Shown in pieces: positions 5,497-23,601 of a stretch of DNA of 25,222 nt. Within the stretch, counting starts at the first letter, position 1. Each line of letters starts with the position of its first letter. The DNA is from a virus. The stretch is from IMG/VR virus record IMGVR_UViG_3300000882_000020, positions 1-25,222 of that record; one strand, given 5' to 3'. Under the pieces are notes generated by a model. That model saw only the letters and a program-made list of their open reading frames with translations, was not told the origin of the DNA and made no database searches. A program made the translations under genes and the position numbers.

Positions 5497-5718
5497 ATGA
5501 ATTTAAATAATATTATTAATCAAATTTTAGAAGAAGAAAATGTAGCTGGGGGTGCAACATCTGCATTGGTTACCCCTGATAGTTCTTCAACTTCTAGTCA
5601 ATTCTCAGGTCCTAATATTTATAATCCTGGTGATAATAGAAGAGCTAAACTTTTATTAAAAAAAGTTCAAGTGAGACCTTGGATGAAAACACCTCGTAGA
5701 AGAAAAAACAAAAAATAA
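5497..5718 (+). CDS. Small basic-tailed protein with N-terminal head-targeting-like tag
   Basis: A 73-residue protein of unknown family. It begins MNLNNIINQILEE, matching the peptide found at the start of several other proteins in this window and containing an [LI]-x-E site. A Ser/Thr/Gly-rich middle follows, and the last 25 residues are strongly basic (RRAKLLLKKVQVR, then KTPRRRKNKK), suggesting nucleic-acid contact. In T4, small basic internal proteins carry an N-terminal capsid-targeting peptide that is removed by the prohead protease; this protein fits that pattern, but the role is inferred. Its stop overlaps the start of the GIY-YIG gene (TAATG). No Shine-Dalgarno is present. The start was chosen because it gives the shared tag. 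Confidence 0.65.
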   Translation: MNLNNIINQILEEENVAGGATSALVTPDSSSTSSQFSGPNIYNPGDNRRAKLLLKKVQVRPWMKTPRRRKNKK

Positions 5719-6137
5719 TGGATTTAGGACACTGGACATTATCGGAAGGAATTTATTGGCATGATAACGTCTTTGGGTTCATTTATGAAATTACTAATAA
5801 AGTAACCGGCAAATTTTATATTGGTAAAAAACAATGTTCACGTAAAATTAAAAGAAAACCATTAAAAGGTAAAAGTCGAAATAGAATTGACCATAAAGAA
5901 TCAGATTGGAAGGAATATTCTGGCTCTTCTAATGACTTACAAGAAGACATTAAAAAGTACGGTAAAGAAAATTTTAACCACGTTATTCTCAGATTATGTG
6001 CGTCAAAATGGGAATTAAGTTATTTTGAAGCCAAAGAACAAATGTTTAGAGATGTTCTTTTAATAGATAACTCATATAATGGTATTTTAAATTTACGTAT
6101 TGGAAAAGCACCAAAATCTTTCTTAAATATACAATAA
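5718..6137 (+). CDS. GIY-YIG family endonuclease-like protein
   Basis: A 139-residue protein with the GIY-YIG fold signature GFIYEITN (20-27) followed by KFYIGKK (32-38), a basic helix start (SRKIKRK), WKEYSGSS and a helix with the likely catalytic Glu (SYFEAKEQMF, E104). It ends in a YNGILNLRIGK motif typical of these phage proteins. GIY-YIG nucleases in T4-like phages include homing endonucleases and repair enzymes; this stand-alone form lacks an obvious extra DNA-binding domain, so the target is unknown. It starts on the last base of the previous stop codon and is followed with no gap by the gene at 6138, so it is part of a tight rightward operon. A selfish homing role is possible but unproven. 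Confidence 0.8.
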   Translation: MDLGHWTLSEGIYWHDNVFGFIYEITNKVTGKFYIGKKQCSRKIKRKPLKGKSRNRIDHKESDWKEYSGSSNDLQEDIKKYGKENFNHVILRLCASKWELSYFEAKEQMFRDVLLIDNSYNGILNLRIGKAPKSFLNIQ

Positions 6138-7303: not shown

Positions 7304-7311
7304 GATAAATA
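7304..7311 (+). promoter_or_regulatory. Late-type promoter GATAAATA
   Basis: GATAAATA ends 5 nt before the ATG at 7317. With the usual late-promoter geometry the transcript would start at or next to the initiation codon. It is the only candidate promoter for the tagged gene at 7317 and the downstream ligase-fusion gene. Confidence 0.55.
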
Positions 7312-7316
7312 AATTT

Positions 7317-7616
7317 ATGACTAAATTCGATCAAGTACTCAATGAATTAACGAACAACATGAATCCTGTTAATCCTGCTAATCAAGTACAACAAACACAA
7401 AATCCTGCACAACCCAATAATCAGGTAAAACCAGGTACACCAGTTCAAACTACTACACAGACCAATCAAGTAAATAAACCAGGACAACCTGTTGTTAATA
7501 ACAACCAACAAAAACCCAATTTTGATCAATTAATGAAGGATTTTAATGATCCTAATAAAAAAATTAATAATTTAACTGATTTAAAAAATTACGGTATTAA
7601 TATAGATCAAAAATAA
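7317..7616 (+). CDS. Q/N/P-rich small protein with N-terminal head-targeting-like tag
   Basis: A 99-residue protein starting MTKFDQVLNELTNN, a member of the shared tag family with an LNE site. The middle (about 17-66) is low complexity, dominated by Gln, Asn, Pro, Thr and Val, and is presumably disordered. Residues 68-75 (NFDQLMKDF) resemble the tag once more. No enzymatic motif is seen. It is separated by 1 nt from the 862-residue nucleotidyltransferase-ligase gene, and the two share one late-type promoter, so they are probably co-expressed. A role as a small virion or head-interior protein is inferred from the tag and promoter only. Confidence 0.65.
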   Translation: MTKFDQVLNELTNNMNPVNPANQVQQTQNPAQPNNQVKPGTPVQTTTQTNQVNKPGQPVVNNNQQKPNFDQLMKDFNDPNKKINNLTDLKNYGINIDQK

Positions 7617-7617
7617 A

Positions 7618-10206
7618 ATGCTAAAAACATCTTTTGCTTCTTTTTTTCATGAATCACATAAAAGACCAATTAAAAAAAAATATTGGTCTCCTAAAAAAAT
7701 AAAAAATGTAAAAGAAAATATTTTTACATTTAAAAATCACTATCAATTAATTTCAGAAGGGGGCCAAGCAGCCGAAAATCTTATTGTAGATTTAAAAAAG
7801 AATACTGGTAACGAAAATTTAAAGTATGTACGAGCCAATCCTACTCCTGAAGTCATTGACGAGATACAAAGACTTCTTACAATTTTAAGAAGTAAGGGGT
7901 TTGTAGATTCTAGAGAACCTTCTTATTATCTAGGTTCGAGTCGTTTATTTGCTATCAAAGCAGGTATTAGAGCACCAGAACCTAATGAAATAGAAACTAA
8001 AGAAATTATTCAAAAAGCTTTGGTTGCCAAAAAAGATTTTGGTGATATTGATTTAGATGTTTATTTCAAAGATGGGGTAACTACTAAAATAGTTAAAGAT
8101 TTTTTAAATTCAGAATTTCCGGGAAAATATGCTGCAGATACAGCAGCGGAAGAAGTTAATACTGCTGTAGTTGTAGGAAATTCTAATAATGTTATTCAAA
8201 TTGATATTGTTAACATTAAAGGTAAAGAAAAATACTTTGGAGTTTCTCAATTTGCTAGTATGGCAGACATGGCTCAAGGAATTAAAGGAGTAGTAAGAGA
8301 TCTTTTGATTAGAGGAATTGCTGCCTCAACTTCTATTAATCCGGAAAAAACAAAAATATTAGACCAAGCTATTGAAAATACCGAAGAGTATAAAAATTTC
8401 GTAGAGAAAAATAAAAAGAATGGCGAAATCACTTATGACATTCGTTATACCTTAGGTGGGGATGGATTAGCTTACAAGATTAATTGGATGGTTAATGGAG
8501 TAGCTAAGAGTTACAGTAAAGGGGGAGTAAAATTTGATCAATTACATCGATTTGTTAGCGGCAAAGAAGTAGACCCAGTCATCTATGATGATTTAGATAC
8601 ATTAGCTGCTATTTTAGGTTTTGCTAACCCAGATCATTTAAAACACGTGGTTAAAATGGCTGAATTAGTTTCCACTTTTGATTCAGAACGTAAACAAAAA
8701 CTTTGGGACAATTTGGTTAAAAATATTAAAACTAAAATTCCCAATTTAGCTACTGGTCGCACTCAAGGTCAAATTTCTAGTCAAGAAGCTAAAAGTGCTT
8801 TTGAATACCTTAAACCTTTCTTTGGTGATGTAAACACAGAAGAGTACACTCAATTATTCGGAGAAAGTTTAAATGAGGCCGTTAAAATGGTTTCTATTCC
8901 ACACATTGATCAAATGACTGCTAAGGATTTTTGTAATCTTTTTAGTGGAGGTGCTTGGGAGGTTTCTGAAAAATATGACGGTTCTAATGTTTCTTTTGGA
9001 TTAAATGAAGAAGGTCAAATTTTTGTTAAATCTAAAAAGGGAAATCCTGTTACAGATGCTTCTGAATTTTACCAACAAGCAAAACTTTATGATAATGATA
9101 TTTTTGAAGGGTTTGCGAGATTTTTAGAAACTCTAAAAAAAAGTAAATTAGAACGTCTTTTGGAACAATTTAATGGAATGATAGGTTCTCCTATTCAAAT
9201 TTTCGGAGAGATGTTCAGTAAAGCTCACATGAATGTTATTCCTTATGCCGAAGAATTAATTGGTAATGGGGCTGTTGTTATTTTCGGAATAGTAAAGTTA
9301 GATTCCCTCAGAGGAACAGATATTACTACTACCAAAGAAGGAAAAGTTATCAAAGATAAAATTTTAGAACTTCTTAATAATTCTACTGATTGGAAATTTT
9401 ACGATAAAAAACCTCTAGCTTTAGATATTGACGAGACTATTAAGTCACAAATTCAAAAGACATGTAGTGCAGAAAATATGGCGGTAATGGCTTCACGAAA
9501 AAGAACAGGCAATGAAGCTGAAATGAAAGCTAAAGCGGTTAAGGAGTTTGAAATTTTAAAATCCCTCATTAAAAAGACTCTTTTAGGTTCTTTAGGTACA
9601 GTTCCTTCTTCTTTAGGAGCTTCAGAAATTGAAGGCGCTATTATTCGTAATATGGAAACTGGGGCTATTGCTAAGTTGGTTGATCTGGAGGGTTTTGGTA
9701 GAAGAAGAGCAGAACAATGGGCTGGAGTAGATGCACTTAAAGACTATCGAAAAAATCTTTATAAACAACTTCAAGAAGATGTGTTAAAAAATGCTGATAT
9801 TTTTATTTTGGATGATAAACAAGTTCAAAAATTAACCAATGCAATGGAAACTAAGGGTTCTCGTTTTGGTTCTATGGATGAAATGTTGGATGTTCTTTAC
9901 GGTGATGCAGCTGAAGAAGTTCAATTTCAAGAAGCTAAACAAATGGTTTCTGATTTAACTAATTCTTTAAACAATTATAAAAGGAATATTGAAGAGGCTT
10001 TAACAAAAATCAACAAAGAAGATTCTAAAGCTTTAGAAGATACGAAAAAGGCTATTGAAGCAGAAAAAAGAAGAATTGATCAATTTATGTCTGAATTGAA
10101 TAAAAGAGTTTCTGATCAACAAAATCCTTACTTATCGATTATTCGATTTGTTTTAGGTCCTAAAATTTTAGAAGAATTGAGTAAAAAATTTACTCAAATA
10201 AAGTAA
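7618..10206 (+). CDS. Nucleotidyltransferase-ligase fusion protein, candidate packaged enzyme
   Basis: An 862-residue two-enzyme protein. The N-terminal part looks like a pol-beta-type nucleotidyltransferase: LGSSRL (105-110, the GS motif), FGDIDLDVYF (141-150, paired Asp) and IQIDIV (193-198, third Asp). The C-terminal part carries covalent nucleotidyltransferase (DNA/RNA ligase) motifs: EKYDGSN (451-457, lysine 452 as adenylation site), IFGEMF (528-533), AVVIFGIVKL (552-561), IEGAIIR (671-677) and AIAKLVD (683-689). Residues 765-830 are a probable coiled coil. Tag-like peptides with [LI]-x-E sites occur at 41-49 (HYQLISEGG) and at 411-422 (TQLFGESLNEAV), just before each catalytic region, suggesting two formerly separate tagged proteins. 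The combination could end-modify and seal RNA or DNA. It follows the gene at 7317 by 1 nt. Domain calls are by motif only. Confidence 0.75.
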   Translation: MLKTSFASFFHESHKRPIKKKYWSPKKIKNVKENIFTFKNHYQLISEGGQAAENLIVDLKKNTGNENLKYVRANPTPEVIDEIQRLLTILRSKGFVDSREPSYYLGSSRLFAIKAGIRAPEPNEIETKEIIQKALVAKKDFGDIDLDVYFKDGVTTKIVKDFLNSEFPGKYAADTAAEEVNTAVVVGNSNNVIQIDIVNIKGKEKYFGVSQFASMADMAQGIKGVVRDLLIRGIAASTSINPEKTKILDQAIENTEEYKNFVEKNKKNGEITYDIRYTLGGDGLAYKINWMVNGVAKSYSKGGVKFDQLHRFVSGKEVDPVIYDDLDTLAAILGFANPDHLKHVVKMAELVSTFDSERKQKLWDNLVKNIKTKIPNLATGRTQGQISSQEAKSAFEYLKPFFGDVNTEEYTQLFGESLNEAVKMVSIPHIDQMTAKDFCNLFSGGAWEVSEKYDGSNVSFGLNEEGQIFVKSKKGNPVTDASEFYQQAKLYDNDIFEGFARFLETLKKSKLERLLEQFNGMIGSPIQIFGEMFSKAHMNVIPYAEELIGNGAVVIFGIVKLDSLRGTDITTTKEGKVIKDKILELLNNSTDWKFYDKKPLALDIDETIKSQIQKTCSAENMAVMASRKRTGNEAEMKAKAVKEFEILKSLIKKTLLGSLGTVPSSLGASEIEGAIIRNMETGAIAKLVDLEGFGRRRAEQWAGVDALKDYRKNLYKQLQEDVLKNADIFILDDKQVQKLTNAMETKGSRFGSMDEMLDVLYGDAAEEVQFQEAKQMVSDLTNSLNNYKRNIEEALTKINKEDSKALEDTKKAIEAEKRRIDQFMSELNKRVSDQQNPYLSIIRFVLGPKILEELSKKFTQIK

Positions 10207-10530: not shown

Positions 10531-10962
10531 ATGCCTTTTACATCTACTAAAATTATAGAGTTAGGTTCTTGTGCTTTTAGACAATGGAAAGCATCTGATA
10601 CGCATTGTTCTAAAATTCACGGATATCAACTAAAAGCCAAATTTTGGTTTACGGGAGAACTAGATGAACGTAATTGGGTTGTTAATTTTGGCGGTCTTAA
10701 AGAATTAAAACATCAACTCCAGCAACAATTTGACCACACACTATGTATTGCTATTGATGATCCTTTATTATCAATATTTCAACAATTACACGAAGCAAAG
10801 GGATGTGATTTGAGAGTTATGGAAGCTGTGGGTATAGAAAAAACAGCGGAATGGTGTTTTAAGAAAGCAAATGAATATATTAAAAATCAAACAGATAATC
10901 GTTGCAAAGTTACTAAGGTAGAAGTTTGGGAACACGAATTAAATAGTGCAATTTACGTATAA
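10531..10962 (+). CDS. queD: QueD-like 6-carboxy/6-pyruvoyl-tetrahydropterin synthase
   Basis: A 143-residue protein of the PTPS/QueD fold. The catalytic segment is THCSKIHGYQL (23-33), with Cys four residues before His as in the family. FDHT (67-70) supplies the Asp-His pair, and the C-terminal VEVWEHELNSAIYV carries the conserved Glu and the A-x-Y ending. The usual H-G-H zinc site reads H-G-Y, and the N-terminal A-A-H motif is replaced by AFRQW, a pattern I recall from marine phage and cyanobacterial members; metal binding may therefore differ. QueD converts dihydroneopterin triphosphate to carboxy-tetrahydropterin on the way to 7-deazaguanines. QueE lies two genes downstream. FolE and QueC are not in the window. 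Confidence 0.82.
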   Translation: MPFTSTKIIELGSCAFRQWKASDTHCSKIHGYQLKAKFWFTGELDERNWVVNFGGLKELKHQLQQQFDHTLCIAIDDPLLSIFQQLHEAKGCDLRVMEAVGIEKTAEWCFKKANEYIKNQTDNRCKVTKVEVWEHELNSAIYV

Positions 10963-10963
10963 A

Positions 10964-11176
10964 ATGAAAAAACAATTAGAAATTATTAACACCACTTTTG
11001 AAAAGGTAGTTCCGAAAAATGAATCTGATAAAAGTAATTTTTGGACCTTTTTAACAACCACATTTTCTACATTTTTTGCATTTTTGTTCATTATGTTTTT
11101 TATGTTGTTTCTACACCCTTTTGGGTGGTTGAGTATTATTATTATGACTCTATTATATAAATTTGTTATTTCTTAA
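10964..11176 (+). CDS. Small membrane protein
   Basis: A 70-residue protein with a charged N-terminal half (KKQLEIIN, then FEKVVPKNESDK) and a hydrophobic C-terminal half with two likely membrane segments (about 24-44 and 48-68) separated by HPFGW. The start at ATG 10964 is preferred to an earlier in-frame ATG at 10946, which lies inside queD; this leaves 1 nt after the queD stop. It ends 4 nt before the QueE start. Its function is unknown; it may be an inner-membrane protein carried in the queuosine-type operon by position only. Confidence 0.6.
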   Translation: MKKQLEIINTTFEKVVPKNESDKSNFWTFLTTTFSTFFAFLFIMFFMLFLHPFGWLSIIIMTLLYKFVIS

Positions 11177-11180
11177 AATT

Positions 11181-11936
11181 ATGGAAGAAAATTATTTGCT
11201 TATAAGTGATGATGGTCCTGGGTTTCATACCATAGAAGGTGAGGGACGTCTCATCGGAACCCCTAGTATTTTTATGAGGTTGTTCGGGTGCAATTTGACC
11301 TGCAAGGGTTGGTCGTCACCAGACTCCCCTAATGGTTGTGATTCTTATATTTCTTGGTCAGTAAAAAACAAATATACATTTGATGAAATGTTTGGTTTTT
11401 ATGAAAGACAAGGATTTATTGAAAAATTAAAAAGAGGTGATGTATGGAAAATCACAGGAGGAGAACCCACTTTAAGACAAGACCCTCTTTTAGCCTTTGT
11501 ACGAATGTTTCAAGAAAAGTATCAATTTCAACCACGTATTGATTTTGAAACTAATGCTACTTTACCATTTAAGGATGATTGGATGAGTAAAGAGTTTAAT
11601 GTTAGTTTTACTACTTCACCAAAATTTTCTTCTAATGGAGACCCTGAAAATAGAACATATAACCCAGATGTTTTAAATTTTCACATCAAACAAAATTCTT
11701 GTTTTAAATTTGTAATTAGTAATCACGAAAAAGACATTGAAGAACTTTTCAGAAAATATATTGATTCAGAACGAGTTAAAATACCTAAACATTTAATTTG
11801 GTTGATGCCTTGTGCTGGGTCAAGACAGGAACATATTGAAAGAGCAGCAGGAGTGGCAGAATTAGCTAAAACTTTTGGTTTTAATTTTAGTGCTCGTTTG
11901 CATCTTTGTCTGTGGGATAAAGCTTTGAAAGTCTGA
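11181..11936 (+). CDS. queE: QueE-like 7-carboxy-7-deazaguanine synthase (radical SAM)
   Basis: A 251-residue radical SAM enzyme. The N-terminus GFHTIEGEGRLIGTPSIF is characteristic of QueE. The cluster motif is C37-x3-C41 followed by C53, with an 11-residue insertion before the third Cys (NGCDSYISW); QueE proteins are known to vary here. WKITGGEPTL (89-98) is the SAM-binding GGEP motif. QueE converts carboxy-tetrahydropterin to carboxy-deazaguanine. An upstream in-frame ATG at 11163 would overlap the previous gene; the ATG at 11181 aligns better with the family start. With QueD in the same unit the phage may boost host queuosine or preQ0, or modify its own DNA with a 7-deazaguanine. Confidence 0.88.
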   Translation: MEENYLLISDDGPGFHTIEGEGRLIGTPSIFMRLFGCNLTCKGWSSPDSPNGCDSYISWSVKNKYTFDEMFGFYERQGFIEKLKRGDVWKITGGEPTLRQDPLLAFVRMFQEKYQFQPRIDFETNATLPFKDDWMSKEFNVSFTTSPKFSSNGDPENRTYNPDVLNFHIKQNSCFKFVISNHEKDIEELFRKYIDSERVKIPKHLIWLMPCAGSRQEHIERAAGVAELAKTFGFNFSARLHLCLWDKALKV

Positions 11937-11947
11937 TAATTAAGAAC

Positions 11948-12565
11948 ATGAGAATAGCTATTATAGGATCCCAAAATTCAGGCAAGAGTCATTTGATTGG
12001 AGAATTTATTCAAAAATGGCCAATGTATAAAACTCCAGAAAAGACTTATAGAAACATTATCAAAAGTCGTAATATTAAAATTAATCAAGAAGGAGATGAA
12101 GAATCACAAAAAGTAATTCTCAATGCTTTAATTGATGAAGTTCAACAAGCTAGTGGAGATTTTTTAATTTTTGATCGTTGTGTGGTTGATAATATTGCTT
12201 ACACTCTTTGGTTGAATGCACATGATAAAGCATCTGATAAATTTGTCATGGATTCTAAATTTTTAGCTCTTCAAACATTAAAAATGTTTGATATTTTATT
12301 TTATATTCCTCTAAGAGACGAAATTAAAATAGAAGAAAAAGATAACAGAGACACTAATCCAGAATTTCGCAAAGAGATTGACAATATCTTTAAAGCTTTA
12401 GTTTTATCTTACGAAAAAGGTACTGGTGCTTTCTTTCCAACTGAAGATTGCCCTGCTGTTATTACTTTAGATGGGCCTCCTGATATTCGTTGTGAACAAA
12501 TTCGTCTCTATCTTAAAGATAATGGAAAGTTTTTTACAGATGAAGATGGTTCACTATTGAGCTAG
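11948..12565 (+). CDS. P-loop kinase-like ATPase (NadR/AAA_28 type)
   Basis: A 205-residue P-loop NTPase. Walker A is GSQNSGKS (7-14), and FLIFDRCVVDNIAY (72-85) corresponds to the D-R-x-x-x-D-x-x-x-Y motif found in NadR-type ribosylnicotinamide kinases and related AAA_28 proteins. FYIPLRDE after the middle helix is a further strand typical of the fold. It probably phosphorylates a small nucleoside-type substrate or senses nucleotides; phage members are often annotated only as ATPases. It follows QueE by 11 nt on the same strand, so a link to pterin or nucleotide metabolism is possible. The start is ATG without a Shine-Dalgarno. Confidence 0.75.
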   Translation: MRIAIIGSQNSGKSHLIGEFIQKWPMYKTPEKTYRNIIKSRNIKINQEGDEESQKVILNALIDEVQQASGDFLIFDRCVVDNIAYTLWLNAHDKASDKFVMDSKFLALQTLKMFDILFYIPLRDEIKIEEKDNRDTNPEFRKEIDNIFKALVLSYEKGTGAFFPTEDCPAVITLDGPPDIRCEQIRLYLKDNGKFFTDEDGSLLS

Positions 12566-12591: not shown

Positions 12592-13824
12592 ATGGTTAAT
12601 TTTGATACATTAGTACAAAACATCTTGTTGAATGAAGCCGTTGTGGGTGTGCCTGATTGGTTTAATACACTTTTAGTCAAACATAAAGAATTGTTTAGTG
12701 TTGATATCACTGATGAAGATTTGAATGATTTTTTCAATCTGTTAGATGATACAAGAATTTCAGAGACTGAAGGTTTAAAAGATTTAAATAAAATTCGTAT
12801 TTTAGATCTTATGAAAACATTTTATGACTCTATGAGTCCTAAACCTAAAGATTTAAACGAATTTAAAACTAATATTACGGACAATTCAGATAAATTTAAA
12901 AATAAAATTTCAAACATTTTAACTTTAAACAAATCAAATCGTCTTAATTGGAAAATGTCAAATTCAAAAATTATTGAATTAAAACAAAGATCCAAAAAAT
13001 TAGCAGGTCAAAAAGGTGCAGATACTTTAATGGGGGAGTATGGGAATGATTTTATTATTCCTGCTGTTCAAAAAATTGTAAAAAAACGTGTTGATTTCTT
13101 TACAAGAGTACTCAACTTTAAAAGCCCAACAACACCGTTTACCAATTTAATTACAGATGTTTTTAAATATCCACTACAATACAAATCAGGAGCTAAAAAA
13201 TATACTAGTGATTTCGAGGAGGTAGATAAATTTTACATTGATAATTTAATTGAAATTGCATTAGCTGCTCAAGATTTTTATGTTAAAGAAATGACTCAAT
13301 TAAAATTAGCTAAACAAAATAATGCAGGATTAAATTTATTTGAATTAATTGTAGGACAAATATTAAACGAACAAACTCCGGGTTCAGTGTCGATTGGTAG
13401 AGGTGGTGAAACTACAACTTCTAGTGGATTGGTTGTACCGTCTTCTTATAAACCATCAGACGAAAAACCAACAACAACTCAACCAGTAGAAATACCAAAA
13501 GAAGTTATTAATAAATTAAAAGAAGAAATTTTATCAGAACAACAAATACCAAATAAAATTAATTTTTATTTGGGCAAGTCTATAGATTATAATTTAACAA
13601 ACCCAGAGACAGGAGAAAATACAGATAAAGTATTACAAACAGTTCCTGGGAATTATAAAGTAAATCAATTACAAAAAAATCCAAACGCCAAAACATTAAT
13701 ACAATCTTTAACCAGAGTGGCTGAATATACTAAAAAGAAACCAGGAGCAGGAGAAAGAATGAAGCAACTTGGAAATGCAGCAGATGCTACCTTAGCTGCA
13801 ATGGGGGTAAAACTTTATGGCTGA
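12592..13824 (+). CDS. Large protein with two head-targeting-like tags
   Basis: A 410-residue protein of unknown family. It begins MVNFDTLVQNILLNEAVVG, one of the clearest members of the tag family, with an LNE-A site that fits the T4 prohead-protease rule. A second tag-like peptide is internal: NLFELIVGQILNEQTPG (248-264). It is followed by a Gly/Ser/Thr-rich linker (265-300) and a distinct C-terminal domain. The protein may thus be two tagged modules joined. Residues 20-245 are mainly helical and charged. No enzyme motif was recognised. A late-type promoter lies just upstream, and the next tagged gene overlaps its end by 8 nt. A head-internal structural role is inferred. Confidence 0.7.
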   Translation: MVNFDTLVQNILLNEAVVGVPDWFNTLLVKHKELFSVDITDEDLNDFFNLLDDTRISETEGLKDLNKIRILDLMKTFYDSMSPKPKDLNEFKTNITDNSDKFKNKISNILTLNKSNRLNWKMSNSKIIELKQRSKKLAGQKGADTLMGEYGNDFIIPAVQKIVKKRVDFFTRVLNFKSPTTPFTNLITDVFKYPLQYKSGAKKYTSDFEEVDKFYIDNLIEIALAAQDFYVKEMTQLKLAKQNNAGLNLFELIVGQILNEQTPGSVSIGRGGETTTSSGLVVPSSYKPSDEKPTTTQPVEIPKEVINKLKEEILSEQQIPNKINFYLGKSIDYNLTNPETGENTDKVLQTVPGNYKVNQLQKNPNAKTLIQSLTRVAEYTKKKPGAGERMKQLGNAADATLAAMGVKLYG

Positions 13825-21816: not shown

Positions 21817-22374
21817 TTATTGACCCATTGCAACTGGAGGTACTTCTTGAGAAATTTTATTAGAAAAATTTCCAGCTACGACATTAGATTCTAAATCATT
21901 TGTGTCTGAGTAAGAAGAATCACCATATTGATTGTCTGTGTTAGGATTAAAATCTGTATCAGGAAGGGGGTTTTCTTTCTCTTTTTTAATTAAAAGAGTT
22001 TCAAGGTCAGTAACAGATTTACCATGATCTTTTAAAATAGTCATTAAATCATCTCTTTCAGATTTGAGTTTTTGATAATCTTCCGAACCTACTTCTGCTT
22101 TTAGAAGAGCCGCGGTTACCTTGTTGTAACGACGAGCGAATTTTTTATTAATGTACTTACTTTCAAGAATTTTTTGATAAGCTTCTTGTAATTCTTCCTC
22201 ATCGCTTTTTTTGGATTTACCTTCTTTTTTTGCTTTAGCTTTTTTAATCGCCAAGTTTTTAGCTTTAAGATAATCATTAGAATCTACTTTACCATCTCCA
22301 GTCAAGTCTTTTTTCTTAGCTTCACTAATAGTTTGATAAGCTTCTTCTAATAAAATTTGATCATTAGTCTTCAT
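21817..22374 (-). CDS. Tagged protein with EF-hand/dockerin-like calcium loop
   Basis: A 185-residue protein. The N-terminus MKTNDQILLEEAYQTISEA resembles the tag family and contains LLE and ISE-A sites; a second similar peptide, LQEAYQKILESK, occurs at 62-73. Between them lies a calcium-binding loop DLTGDGKVDSND (23-34) with all coordinating positions of an EF-hand/dockerin loop filled, followed by DYLKAKNLAIKKA. Residues 74-135 are helical and charged; the C-terminal 50 are Asn/Asp/Ser-rich and likely disordered. I recall similar DGDG-type loops in tagged proteins of T4-like cyanophages. A late-type promoter lies 7 nt upstream and a strong terminator follows. Head-interior location is inferred. 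Confidence 0.7.
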   Translation of the reverse strand: MKTNDQILLEEAYQTISEAKKKDLTGDGKVDSNDYLKAKNLAIKKAKAKKEGKSKKSDEEELQEAYQKILESKYINKKFARRYNKVTAALLKAEVGSEDYQKLKSERDDLMTILKDHGKSVTDLETLLIKKEKENPLPDTDFNPNTDNQYGDSSYSDTNDLESNVVAGNFSNKISQEVPPVAMGQ

Positions 22375-22389: not shown

Positions 22390-23053
22390 AAAGAACTACC
22401 CGAGAACTGATAACTTGACGAGTTTCTTCTGTATTTTCTACTACAGTTCCATTAGATTCAATTACTATGTTTCTTATTTTTGTTTGATGTAGTGGTTCGG
22501 GTATAATAGGTATTTGATTAATTTTTTGTTGTGGTGTGGGAGTTGATTTAACCAATGAAACCGGTAATTTTTGAATTGGTTTAGGTTGGGGGGTTGTAAT
22601 TGGTGTTGGTTTAGATGGTATGTTTTTAACTAATGTATTGAATGTAACATTATGAGAAGAAGATTTTGGTGTTGCTAATTTGATTTCTTTAGGTAAACAA
22701 TTATCAATTTTTTTAATTTGAAAATTGTTTTTAATATATTCAAAAGAACCCAAAACATTATTAACACCTTTAACAGATTCTGCTACCATTTTTTTAATTT
22801 TAGGTTGAGAAGAAGTATTTTGTTTTTGTGGCACAGGTACTGCAACTATTTTAGGTATAATGTGATTATTATTCCATCCTGGTTTTGATTTTTTCTCATT
22901 ATAAAGTTTTTCTCTACTATCTTTCAATTCTTGTGTTAATCTTTTTTTATAAGAACTATACTGGGTAATAGCACCATAGACTGCTAGGTGAAGGAAGACG
23001 ACTACCCCAAAAGCCGTCTTCCATGAAATACTTTTATGTTTTTTAAAATTCAT
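22388..23053 (-). CDS. TonB-like single-pass membrane protein, Pro-rich
   Basis: A 221-residue protein with a short basic cytoplasmic N-terminus, one membrane helix (12-29, TAFGVVVFLHLAVYGAI) containing an intramembrane His, a charged helical stretch (31-55), and a long Pro/Thr/Lys-rich extension (KPTPITTPQPKPIQ, then STPTPQQK). This layout resembles TonB-like energy-transducing proteins: signal anchor with His plus periplasm-spanning linker. No TonB C-terminal fold is evident. It is translationally coupled (TAATG) to the LysM protein upstream, whose membrane helix has a similar LIHLSV segment, so the two may pair in the inner membrane. The role is unknown; envelope interaction or lysis are options. 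Confidence 0.62.
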   Translation of the reverse strand: MNFKKHKSISWKTAFGVVVFLHLAVYGAITQYSSYKKRLTQELKDSREKLYNEKKSKPGWNNNHIIPKIVAVPVPQKQNTSSQPKIKKMVAESVKGVNNVLGSFEYIKNNFQIKKIDNCLPKEIKLATPKSSSHNVTFNTLVKNIPSKPTPITTPQPKPIQKLPVSLVKSTPTPQQKINQIPIIPEPLHQTKIRNIVIESNGTVVENTEETRQVISSRVVL

Positions 23054-23601
23054 TACAGAAACCGAAGTTTTTGACCGACTACAACCTTATTAGGGTCTTG
23101 GATGTTATTGATCTTAATAAGACGATCATAATTTAATTTGTATTTTTTTGCAACACTAAACACAGTATCGCCAGATTTAATTACATATTCTTTTATCAAT
23201 TGATTTTTAACTTCTGTTTTAACTTGAGGTACTGGTGGTTTAACTTGAGGTACTGGTGGTTTAACTTGAGGTACTGGTGGTTTAACTTGAGGTACTGGTA
23301 GTTTTGTTTCTTCTTTCAGTGGTTCTGGTTTACTATCCATTGGTACATCATTTGATGGGCTCGGTGTTGGAGTAGGTTTTTGTTCTTCTGTTATTGGTGG
23401 TTCTTTTATATTTGTTTCTTTTTTAGGAGCAGCTATAGCCAATATAGAGAAGACACTCAAATGAATTAATACTACAGACCAAAAGATCCAATTTTTAAAA
23501 AGATTGTATTCAGTTTTTATGTTTTTATTGTTTTGAGGAAGTTTATCTTGAAAAAGAATATCTTCTTCGGTACTTACATCGATGTGGTATTGATTATTCA
23601 T
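23053..23601 (-). CDS. Membrane-anchored LysM protein with Pro-rich repeats
   Basis: A 182-residue protein with an N-terminal cytoplasmic part (1-37), a single membrane helix (38-58, IFWSVVLIHLSVFSILAI), a Pro-rich linker with four copies of the heptapeptide PPVPQVK (about 102-128), and a C-terminal LysM domain (139-182; YVIKSGDTVFSVAKKY and VVVGQKLRFL) that binds peptidoglycan. It would anchor in the inner membrane and reach through the periplasm to the wall. It is coupled to the TonB-like gene by a TAATG overlap. A phage product of this type could act at lysis, block superinfection or hold the envelope during infection; none is proven. Confidence 0.8.
   Translation of the reverse strand: MNNQYHIDVSTEEDILFQDKLPQNNKNIKTEYNLFKNWIFWSVVLIHLSVFSILAIAAPKKETNIKEPPITEEQKPTPTPSPSNDVPMDSKPEPLKEETKLPVPQVKPPVPQVKPPVPQVKPPVPQVKTEVKNQLIKEYVIKSGDTVFSVAKKYKLNYDRLIKINNIQDPNKVVVGQKLRFL
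23218..23301 (-). repeat. Four tandem 21-bp repeats in the LysM gene
   Basis: The unit TTTAACTTGAGGTACTGGTGG on the plus strand occurs four times in a row, the last copy with one substitution. It encodes the Pro-Val-Gln-Val-Lys heptapeptide linker. Near-identity at the DNA level implies recent slippage or recombination, so copy number may vary between relatives. Confidence 0.9.

Follow-up and report, generated by a model that had tools for sequence, protein, structure and literature searches.

Why would a bacteriophage encode a nucleotidyltransferase and a ligase in one polypeptide, and place before each of them what looks like a cleavage site for the prohead protease? The question is raised by an open reading frame (ORF) of 862 residues in IMG/VR virus record IMGVR_UViG_3300000882_000020, of which positions 1 to 25,222 (hereafter the window, 25,222 nucleotides long) were analyzed. 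A sequence-only reading had proposed that two packaged enzymes are fused in a chain that the protease could separate again, that they might repair the genome at entry or act on tRNA, and that no described phage system has this arrangement. We find that its anatomy is confirmed and can be generalized, the pattern being wider than first seen, while its interpretation is partly supported. Our own reading, to which we assign a probability of about 0.62, is that the ORF encodes a head-packaged RNA end-repair polyprotein separable by the prohead protease, and packaging, cutting, injection, and the RNA substrate are what we infer.

Results

The ORF and all of the motifs previously noted in it (GSSR, D143/D145/D147, D196, K452, IFGEMF, IEGAIIR, and AIAKLVD) were found at the positions given in Table 1. 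AlphaFold models of the two halves were built on 13- and 14-row alignments. The model of the first half is of moderate confidence (pLDDT 69) and best in its catalytic core, and over model residues about 7–177 it matches pol beta, lambda, and mu, GLD-2, and OAS with Z scores of 7–8; the top rows from VIA are all pol X, TUT, or OAS enzymes (Z 7–8, about 92–174 residues), which bears out the nucleotidyltransferase fold that had been suggested. D143, D145, and D147 lie within FGDIDLDV, which begins at residue 141. By motifs and predicted fold, the first half is a nucleotidyltransferase of the pol-beta superfamily. An identity with RlaP was tried and rejected: the nucleotidyltransferase gave no match to PF10127 at E≤1, nor was any PF10127 found in the records that carry it.

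The second half is, by profile, motifs, and predicted fold, an Rnl2-like RNA ligase, for which nick sealing is predicted. Pfam RNA_ligase (PF09414) matches it at 2.7e-6 (28.1 bits against a cut-off of 27), the PHROG RNA ligase profile is matched by 14 of 14 members (best 3.1e-10) and TIGR02307 by 7 of 14 (best 1.2e-4), and EKYDGSN and FGE are invariant among relatives. Its model, also of moderate confidence (pLDDT 65, catalytic core best), matches T4 Rnl2 (Z 9.2), TbREL1 (9.0), and Trl1 (8.9) in VIA, as well as T4 Rnl1, so that the ligase fold expected earlier is upheld as that of an RNA ligase. It could be argued that the pair instead processes DNA ends, filling gaps or extending ends before sealing, and in effect serves in packaged form for end joining, so that the incoming genome is protected or circularized. 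The leading fold matches of the first half to pol beta, lambda, and mu would fit this, as would the presence of African swine fever virus and other DNA ligases among the matches of the second and the failure to find a PF01068 DNA ligase in G001, a near-complete related genome. However, RNA ligases lead both Foldseek and VIA, the PHROG, Pfam, and TIGR matches are all to RNA ligases, and the predicted C terminus is helical with no oligonucleotide-binding (OB) fold, albeit in a low-confidence part of the model; repair of the DNA genome at entry, one of the purposes originally offered, is therefore disfavored, and repair of RNA ends is the better fit. T4-type phages, moreover, recombine via terminal redundancy, which also counts against a role at DNA ends, and we regard such a role as quite unlikely.

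The likelihood of packaging and cutting is suggested by the module boundaries. T4 gp21 cleaves after L/I-x-E (PMC9026906), and the ORF protein has ISE/GG at residues 45–47/48 and LNE/A at 418–420/421 (a slash marks the predicted cut). About 20 fused relatives were found, and 13 non-redundant ones were used for counting boundary motifs. Although [LIVM]xE occurs at 18 sites in the whole protein, only three boundaries (48, 421, and 452) hold the motif in 13 of 13 relatives (full alignment, one residue of slack), which argues that the tags at 48 and 421 are more than chance. Boundary 452 is the ligase catalytic motif I; at 48 and 421 the modules begin, and there the motifs fall in variable regions of four to six different lengths and yet abut the invariant GGQAA and AVKM. 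Ahead of AVKM, [LIVM]xE/A is present in 12 of the 13 (in L008, with IEEK/A, it is off by one residue), and the linker there differs in length by up to 8 residues.

The N-terminal tag described earlier does end at the module start, but it forms part of a propeptide whose length runs from 13 to about 52 residues across relatives, being about 47 in the window ORF and 13–17 in several others (MSSFKSLIQSILNE/GGQ, MINFKTYFRMLLE/GGQ). The shorter propeptides, for instance MINFKTYFRMLLE/GGQ, resemble the tags of T4: T4 IPII and IPIII begin MKTYQEFIAE/A. The capsid-targeting peptide of T4 IPIII has 10 residues, and propeptides start from 7 residues (PMC9026906). The propeptide of the window's clade opens with an extra T4-tag-like stretch (MLKTSFASFFHE/S, 7618–7653), and a basic linker lies between this stretch and the second tag.

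As for the tag said to precede the ligase, its cut motif is conserved like that at 48, but the junction segment is a weak targeting helix that scores under most N-terminal tags, and it is therefore better read as a cut site than as a clear second targeting signal. This weak score, the displaced motif of L008, and the joining of nucleotidyltransferase and ligase in every relative of the ORF's own family would also be expected if the protein were packaged and lost its propeptide but its enzymes stayed joined, as a bifunctional end-repair enzyme in which the junction L-x-E is a linker feature. We think this unlikely, because the junction varies in length and yet every member has [LIVM]xE just ahead of an invariant block, the motif being found again at the junction of distant fusions, and because jumbo phages make two separate proteins (see below). 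Internal re-initiation at M424 seems less likely, no Shine-Dalgarno-like sequence having been seen before that codon. A position-specific scoring matrix scan for internal tags found no clear enrichment in tagged proteins, and N-terminal [LIVM]xE counts over all G001 and G002 proteins (G002 being the second near-complete relative) were raised only mildly. The layout is not unique to the 862-residue ORF, since a 410-residue protein (12592–13824, +) is likewise a tag-module-tag-module chain, with MVNFDTLVQNILLNE/A at its N terminus and, near residues 248–260, a second, stronger and well-formed internal tag, NLFELIVGQILNE/Q; both are kept in the relatives L003, L005, and L006. Another tagged protein (21817–22374, −) repeats a tag-like helix (EEAYQTISE/A, QEAYQKILE/S).

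Judged by its gene content, with PHROG matches to UvsY, a late sigma factor, an SbcD-like protein, a helicase, and a primase, the window is a fragment of a T4-like phage. The gp21-family protease (PF03420, Peptidase S77) is not present in this 25-kb fragment itself; it was found in five of six relative records, and relatives carry gp23 too, with both genes in the near-complete G001 (198.8 kb, 17 tRNA genes) and G002 (195.9 kb, 29 tRNA genes). In G002 gp23, LTE/A aligns with the T4 maturation site SFLTE/A; among named phages, the best-listed share ∼34% identity with this protein, and the lineage is therefore deep and without a close isolate. Searches of INPHARED by tblastn, with the whole protein and with either half of L028, a distant member, found no close relative, the sole meaningful weak match being a Serratia phage RNA ligase (6e-3); sequence searches gave no match in the PDB and no relative in the GTDB genomes searched.

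The sequence ATAAATA lies within 50 nt upstream of 7 of 8 tagged genes of the window as against 1 of 32 others (Fisher 3e-6), at 12–41 nt from the seven tagged genes at 5497, 7317, 12592, 14055, 15328, 21817, and 24586, and is probably a late promoter element of this lineage. L021, L027, L029, and L033 have it immediately 5' of their fused genes, and its enrichment before tagged genes recurs in G002 but is not significant in G001; exact TATAAATA showed no enrichment in the window.

Relatives of the two modules extend well beyond the fused family. Searching models of viral proteins by fold returned phage proteins of 657, 633, and 277 residues, the last being the nucleotidyltransferase AUZ94877 of Agrobacterium phage Atu_ph07, whose gene overlaps AUZ94878, which carries the ligase motifs LLEKLDGS, IEGVVF, and KIFD. 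In the jumbo phages Atu_ph07, Sinorhizobium phage Phosso (XYS97604 and XYS97603), and the Pseudomonas PA5oct group (EST35_0231 and EST35_0228), nucleotidyltransferase and ligase are separate neighboring genes, labeled in the records only as hypothetical or structural proteins; the record of EST35_0231, the PA5oct nucleotidyltransferase, notes "ESI-MS/MS, structural protein". The jumbo nucleotidyltransferases start MGGRAF, MGGAAF, or MSGNAF, matching the GGQAA end that a cut at E47 would expose, and the Phosso ligase starts MKHLCDLP, near the IPHIDQM that would follow the E420 cut. The ligase link to these phages has a profile-comparison E of 9.8e-6; that of the nucleotidyltransferase is weaker (0.025 with four sequences, 1.8e-4 with a wider set).

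A scan with the jumbo nucleotidyltransferases yielded 329 relatives in viral contigs, 80 of which were fetched. Among these, a large group has short peptides (MELFE, MILLE, MSGNELLNE, MNQINE, etc.) ahead of GGN[VI]F, with [LIVM]xE/, more narrowly [LI]xE/, ending all 13 of 13 distinct N termini there. Fusions in this wide family are about 600 or 800 residues long and have a ligase-like domain with KWDGKPA and EGYV...KYVDRLRF, their junctions reading [LIVM]xE/[AGS]AR (more narrowly [IV]xE/[AGS]AR) in 10 of 10 distinct sequences, and at three loci a separate ligase lies near the nucleotidyltransferase. The ligase module alone is a hypothetical protein in ∼240 cyanophage, pelagiphage, and methylophage records, is labeled T4-GC 71 in those of P-HM2 and Syn33, and has a propeptide (FSKYITE/D) in Melnitz-3. 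The predicted layout of tag, nucleotidyltransferase, and ligase accordingly recurs in many environmental phages beyond the ORF's own family, and the occurrence of the pair as separate, tagged, and fused genes fits an origin in which two tagged genes were joined and the second tag was kept as a cut site. The standalone ligases (NC_031900, GU075905, NC_015285, and ∼240 others) have the motifs KWDG and EGYV...KLVDR. A standalone nucleotidyltransferase relative also occurs in a Prevotella Lak phage (L124, 4001–4510), where no ligase-like ORF was found within 4 kb.

It might be supposed that the ORF protein is not packaged at all, being an ordinary RNA-repair fusion that acts in the infected cell and in which L-x-E occurs by chance or for structural reasons. 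The infected cell is where other RNA-repair enzymes of phages are said to act (PMC7824862), and some standalone ligases lack a propeptide. Against this view stand the conservation of both boundary motifs across two divergent clades, the late-like promoters and many tagged neighbors, and the record of the PA5oct nucleotidyltransferase in virions, and we find it rather improbable.

Table 1. Positions of the fused gene, its parts, and the adjacent promoter-like element in the window.
Feature	Position	Strand	Support or context
Whole ORF (propeptide, nucleotidyltransferase module, cut site, ligase module; 862 aa)	7618..10206	+	∼20 fused relatives
N-terminal propeptide, aa 1–47, ending FTFKNHYQLISE/GG	7618..7758	+	[LI]xE/GGQAA in 13/13 non-redundant relatives
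Capsid-targeting-sequence-like core of propeptide, aa 35–47	7720–7758	+	
Pol-beta-type nucleotidyltransferase module, aa 48–420, including C-terminal linker	7759..8877	+	Fold matches; GSSR, GDxDLD, QxD invariant
GSSR motif, aa 106–109	7933..7944	+	Invariant in A3 alignment
D143-x-D145-x-D147 (GDIDLD), predicted metal-binding carboxylates	8044..8058	+	Invariant in A3 alignment
D196, predicted third carboxylate (IQIDIV)	8203..8205	+	Invariant in A3 alignment
Length-variable linker ending LNE/, aa 409–420; predicted cut 420/421	8842..8877	+	Motif kept in relatives
Rnl-type ligase module, aa 421–862	8878..10203	+	Pfam/PHROG/TIGR profiles, fold matches
K452 in EKYDGSN (motif I), predicted AMP-accepting lysine	8971..8973	+	Invariant; aligns with T4 Rnl2 EKIHGTN
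Motif III, IFGEMF, aa 528 on	9199..9216	+	Aligns with Rnl2 VFGEFA
Motifs IV (IEGAIIR, 671) and V (AIAKLVD, 683)	9628..9684	+	Kept in complete relatives
Late-promoter-like ATAAATA	7305..7311	+	Precedes tagged gene 7317–7616, which ends just before the ORF

Immediately 3' of the ORF are QueD-like, QueE-like, and thymidylate-kinase-like genes (10531–12565, +), which we read as a preQ0-type pathway fragment and which also lie downstream of the fused gene of G001. A SegE-like GIY-YIG endonuclease gene (5718–6137, +) has a counterpart in G001, a short distance 5' of the fused gene there. Elsewhere, the gene at 23053–23601 (−) encodes a LysM-domain protein that also contains VPQVKPP repeats and a hydrophobic segment, and G002 has paralogous genes in tandem (174292–176053) that start MKIIDEINIS and contain short internal repeats.

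Discussion

Since each half is preceded by a predicted head-protease site, we think it probable that the two enzymes are taken up into the head, separated from each other, and delivered to the host, where they would mend damaged RNA. Under such a scheme, the ORF would be expressed late as a head-targeted polyprotein of a T4-like phage, and its N-terminal propeptide would bring it into the prohead core. A gp21-type protease would then cut after L/I-x-E47, removing the propeptide, and after L-x-E420, freeing inside the capsid equal numbers of a pol-beta nucleotidyltransferase with GGQAA at its N terminus and an ATP-dependent, RNA-ligase-like enzyme of the Rnl type with AVKM at its own. Both would enter the host together with the DNA; the former would re-add nucleotides to the 3' ends of broken RNA, which the latter would then seal, most likely to undo host cleavage of tRNA or other RNA at the very start of infection. 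For phages, it has been proposed that nucleotidyltransferases put back the nucleotides that RNA loses on cleavage and that RNA ligases seal it, as in the case of RlaP (PMC7824862).

Several observations, in addition to the weak targeting helix at the junction, weigh against this reading. The PA5oct ligase carries no mass spectrometry flag in its record; hhalign gives modest values for the distant homology (E 1.8e-4/1.5e-4, probabilities near 50%); the standalone ligases of S-CAM4, P-HM2, and Syn33 have no obvious propeptide; the S77 protease was not seen in the marine contigs, which are incomplete fragments; and the RNA substrate is deduced from sequence and fold.

If the reading is true, one chain becomes two enzymes by the action of the prohead protease inside the capsid, and the phage meets RNA-cleaving defenses with enzymes carried in the virion. 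The chances are about even that several environmental T4-like lineages pre-load their capsids in this way with a protease-split RNA-repair kit, repair beginning at DNA entry and before phage gene expression. A testable function would also be offered for the ligase module called hypothetical in ∼240 cyanophage and related records, and for hundreds of nucleotidyltransferase relatives in environmental phages.

Several known systems share parts of this arrangement. Jumbo phages PA5oct, Atu_ph07, and Phosso have distant homologues of both modules as close neighbors, with the nucleotidyltransferase of PA5oct in virions, but as separate genes with the ligase first and without an N-terminal L/I-x-E propeptide. 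T4 Rnl2 (PF09414), the best VIA match of the ligase half, shares with it motifs I, III, IV, and V and the nucleotidyltransferase fold; the ORF differs in its motif I (EKYDGSN rather than EKIHGTN), in a long insertion ahead of motif IV, in the greater length of its C-terminal region, and in the nucleotidyltransferase fused to it. Polyvalent proteins (PMC5512222) and the packaged proteins of N4 and phage P1 are multidomain and coinjected with DNA, some being processed before packaging, whereas the two modules of the ORF belong to one likely pathway and its predicted cut sites match the prohead protease rather than an internal metallopeptidase. The T4 internal proteins IPI, IPII, and IPIII and Alt begin, like the ORF protein, with a short peptide ending in L/I-x-E, which in T4 is removed by gp21, and are late proteins that travel in the head and are ejected into the host cell (PMC9026906), as we propose for the ORF; unlike them, it would deliver two repair enzymes and be cut a second time within the chain, where the two join. 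The RlaP (PF10127) and Rnl1/Rnl2 pairs of phages and bacteria (PMC7824862) likewise combine a pol-beta nucleotidyltransferase with an ATP-dependent RNA ligase, but the ORF is one polypeptide with a propeptide and head-protease sites, and its nucleotidyltransferase does not match PF10127. The claim that no such system had been described is thus only partly right, since repair pairs of RlaP and RNA ligase are known, as are the capsid-targeting peptides of T4; no description of the two combined in one protease-separable chain was found in the literature searched.
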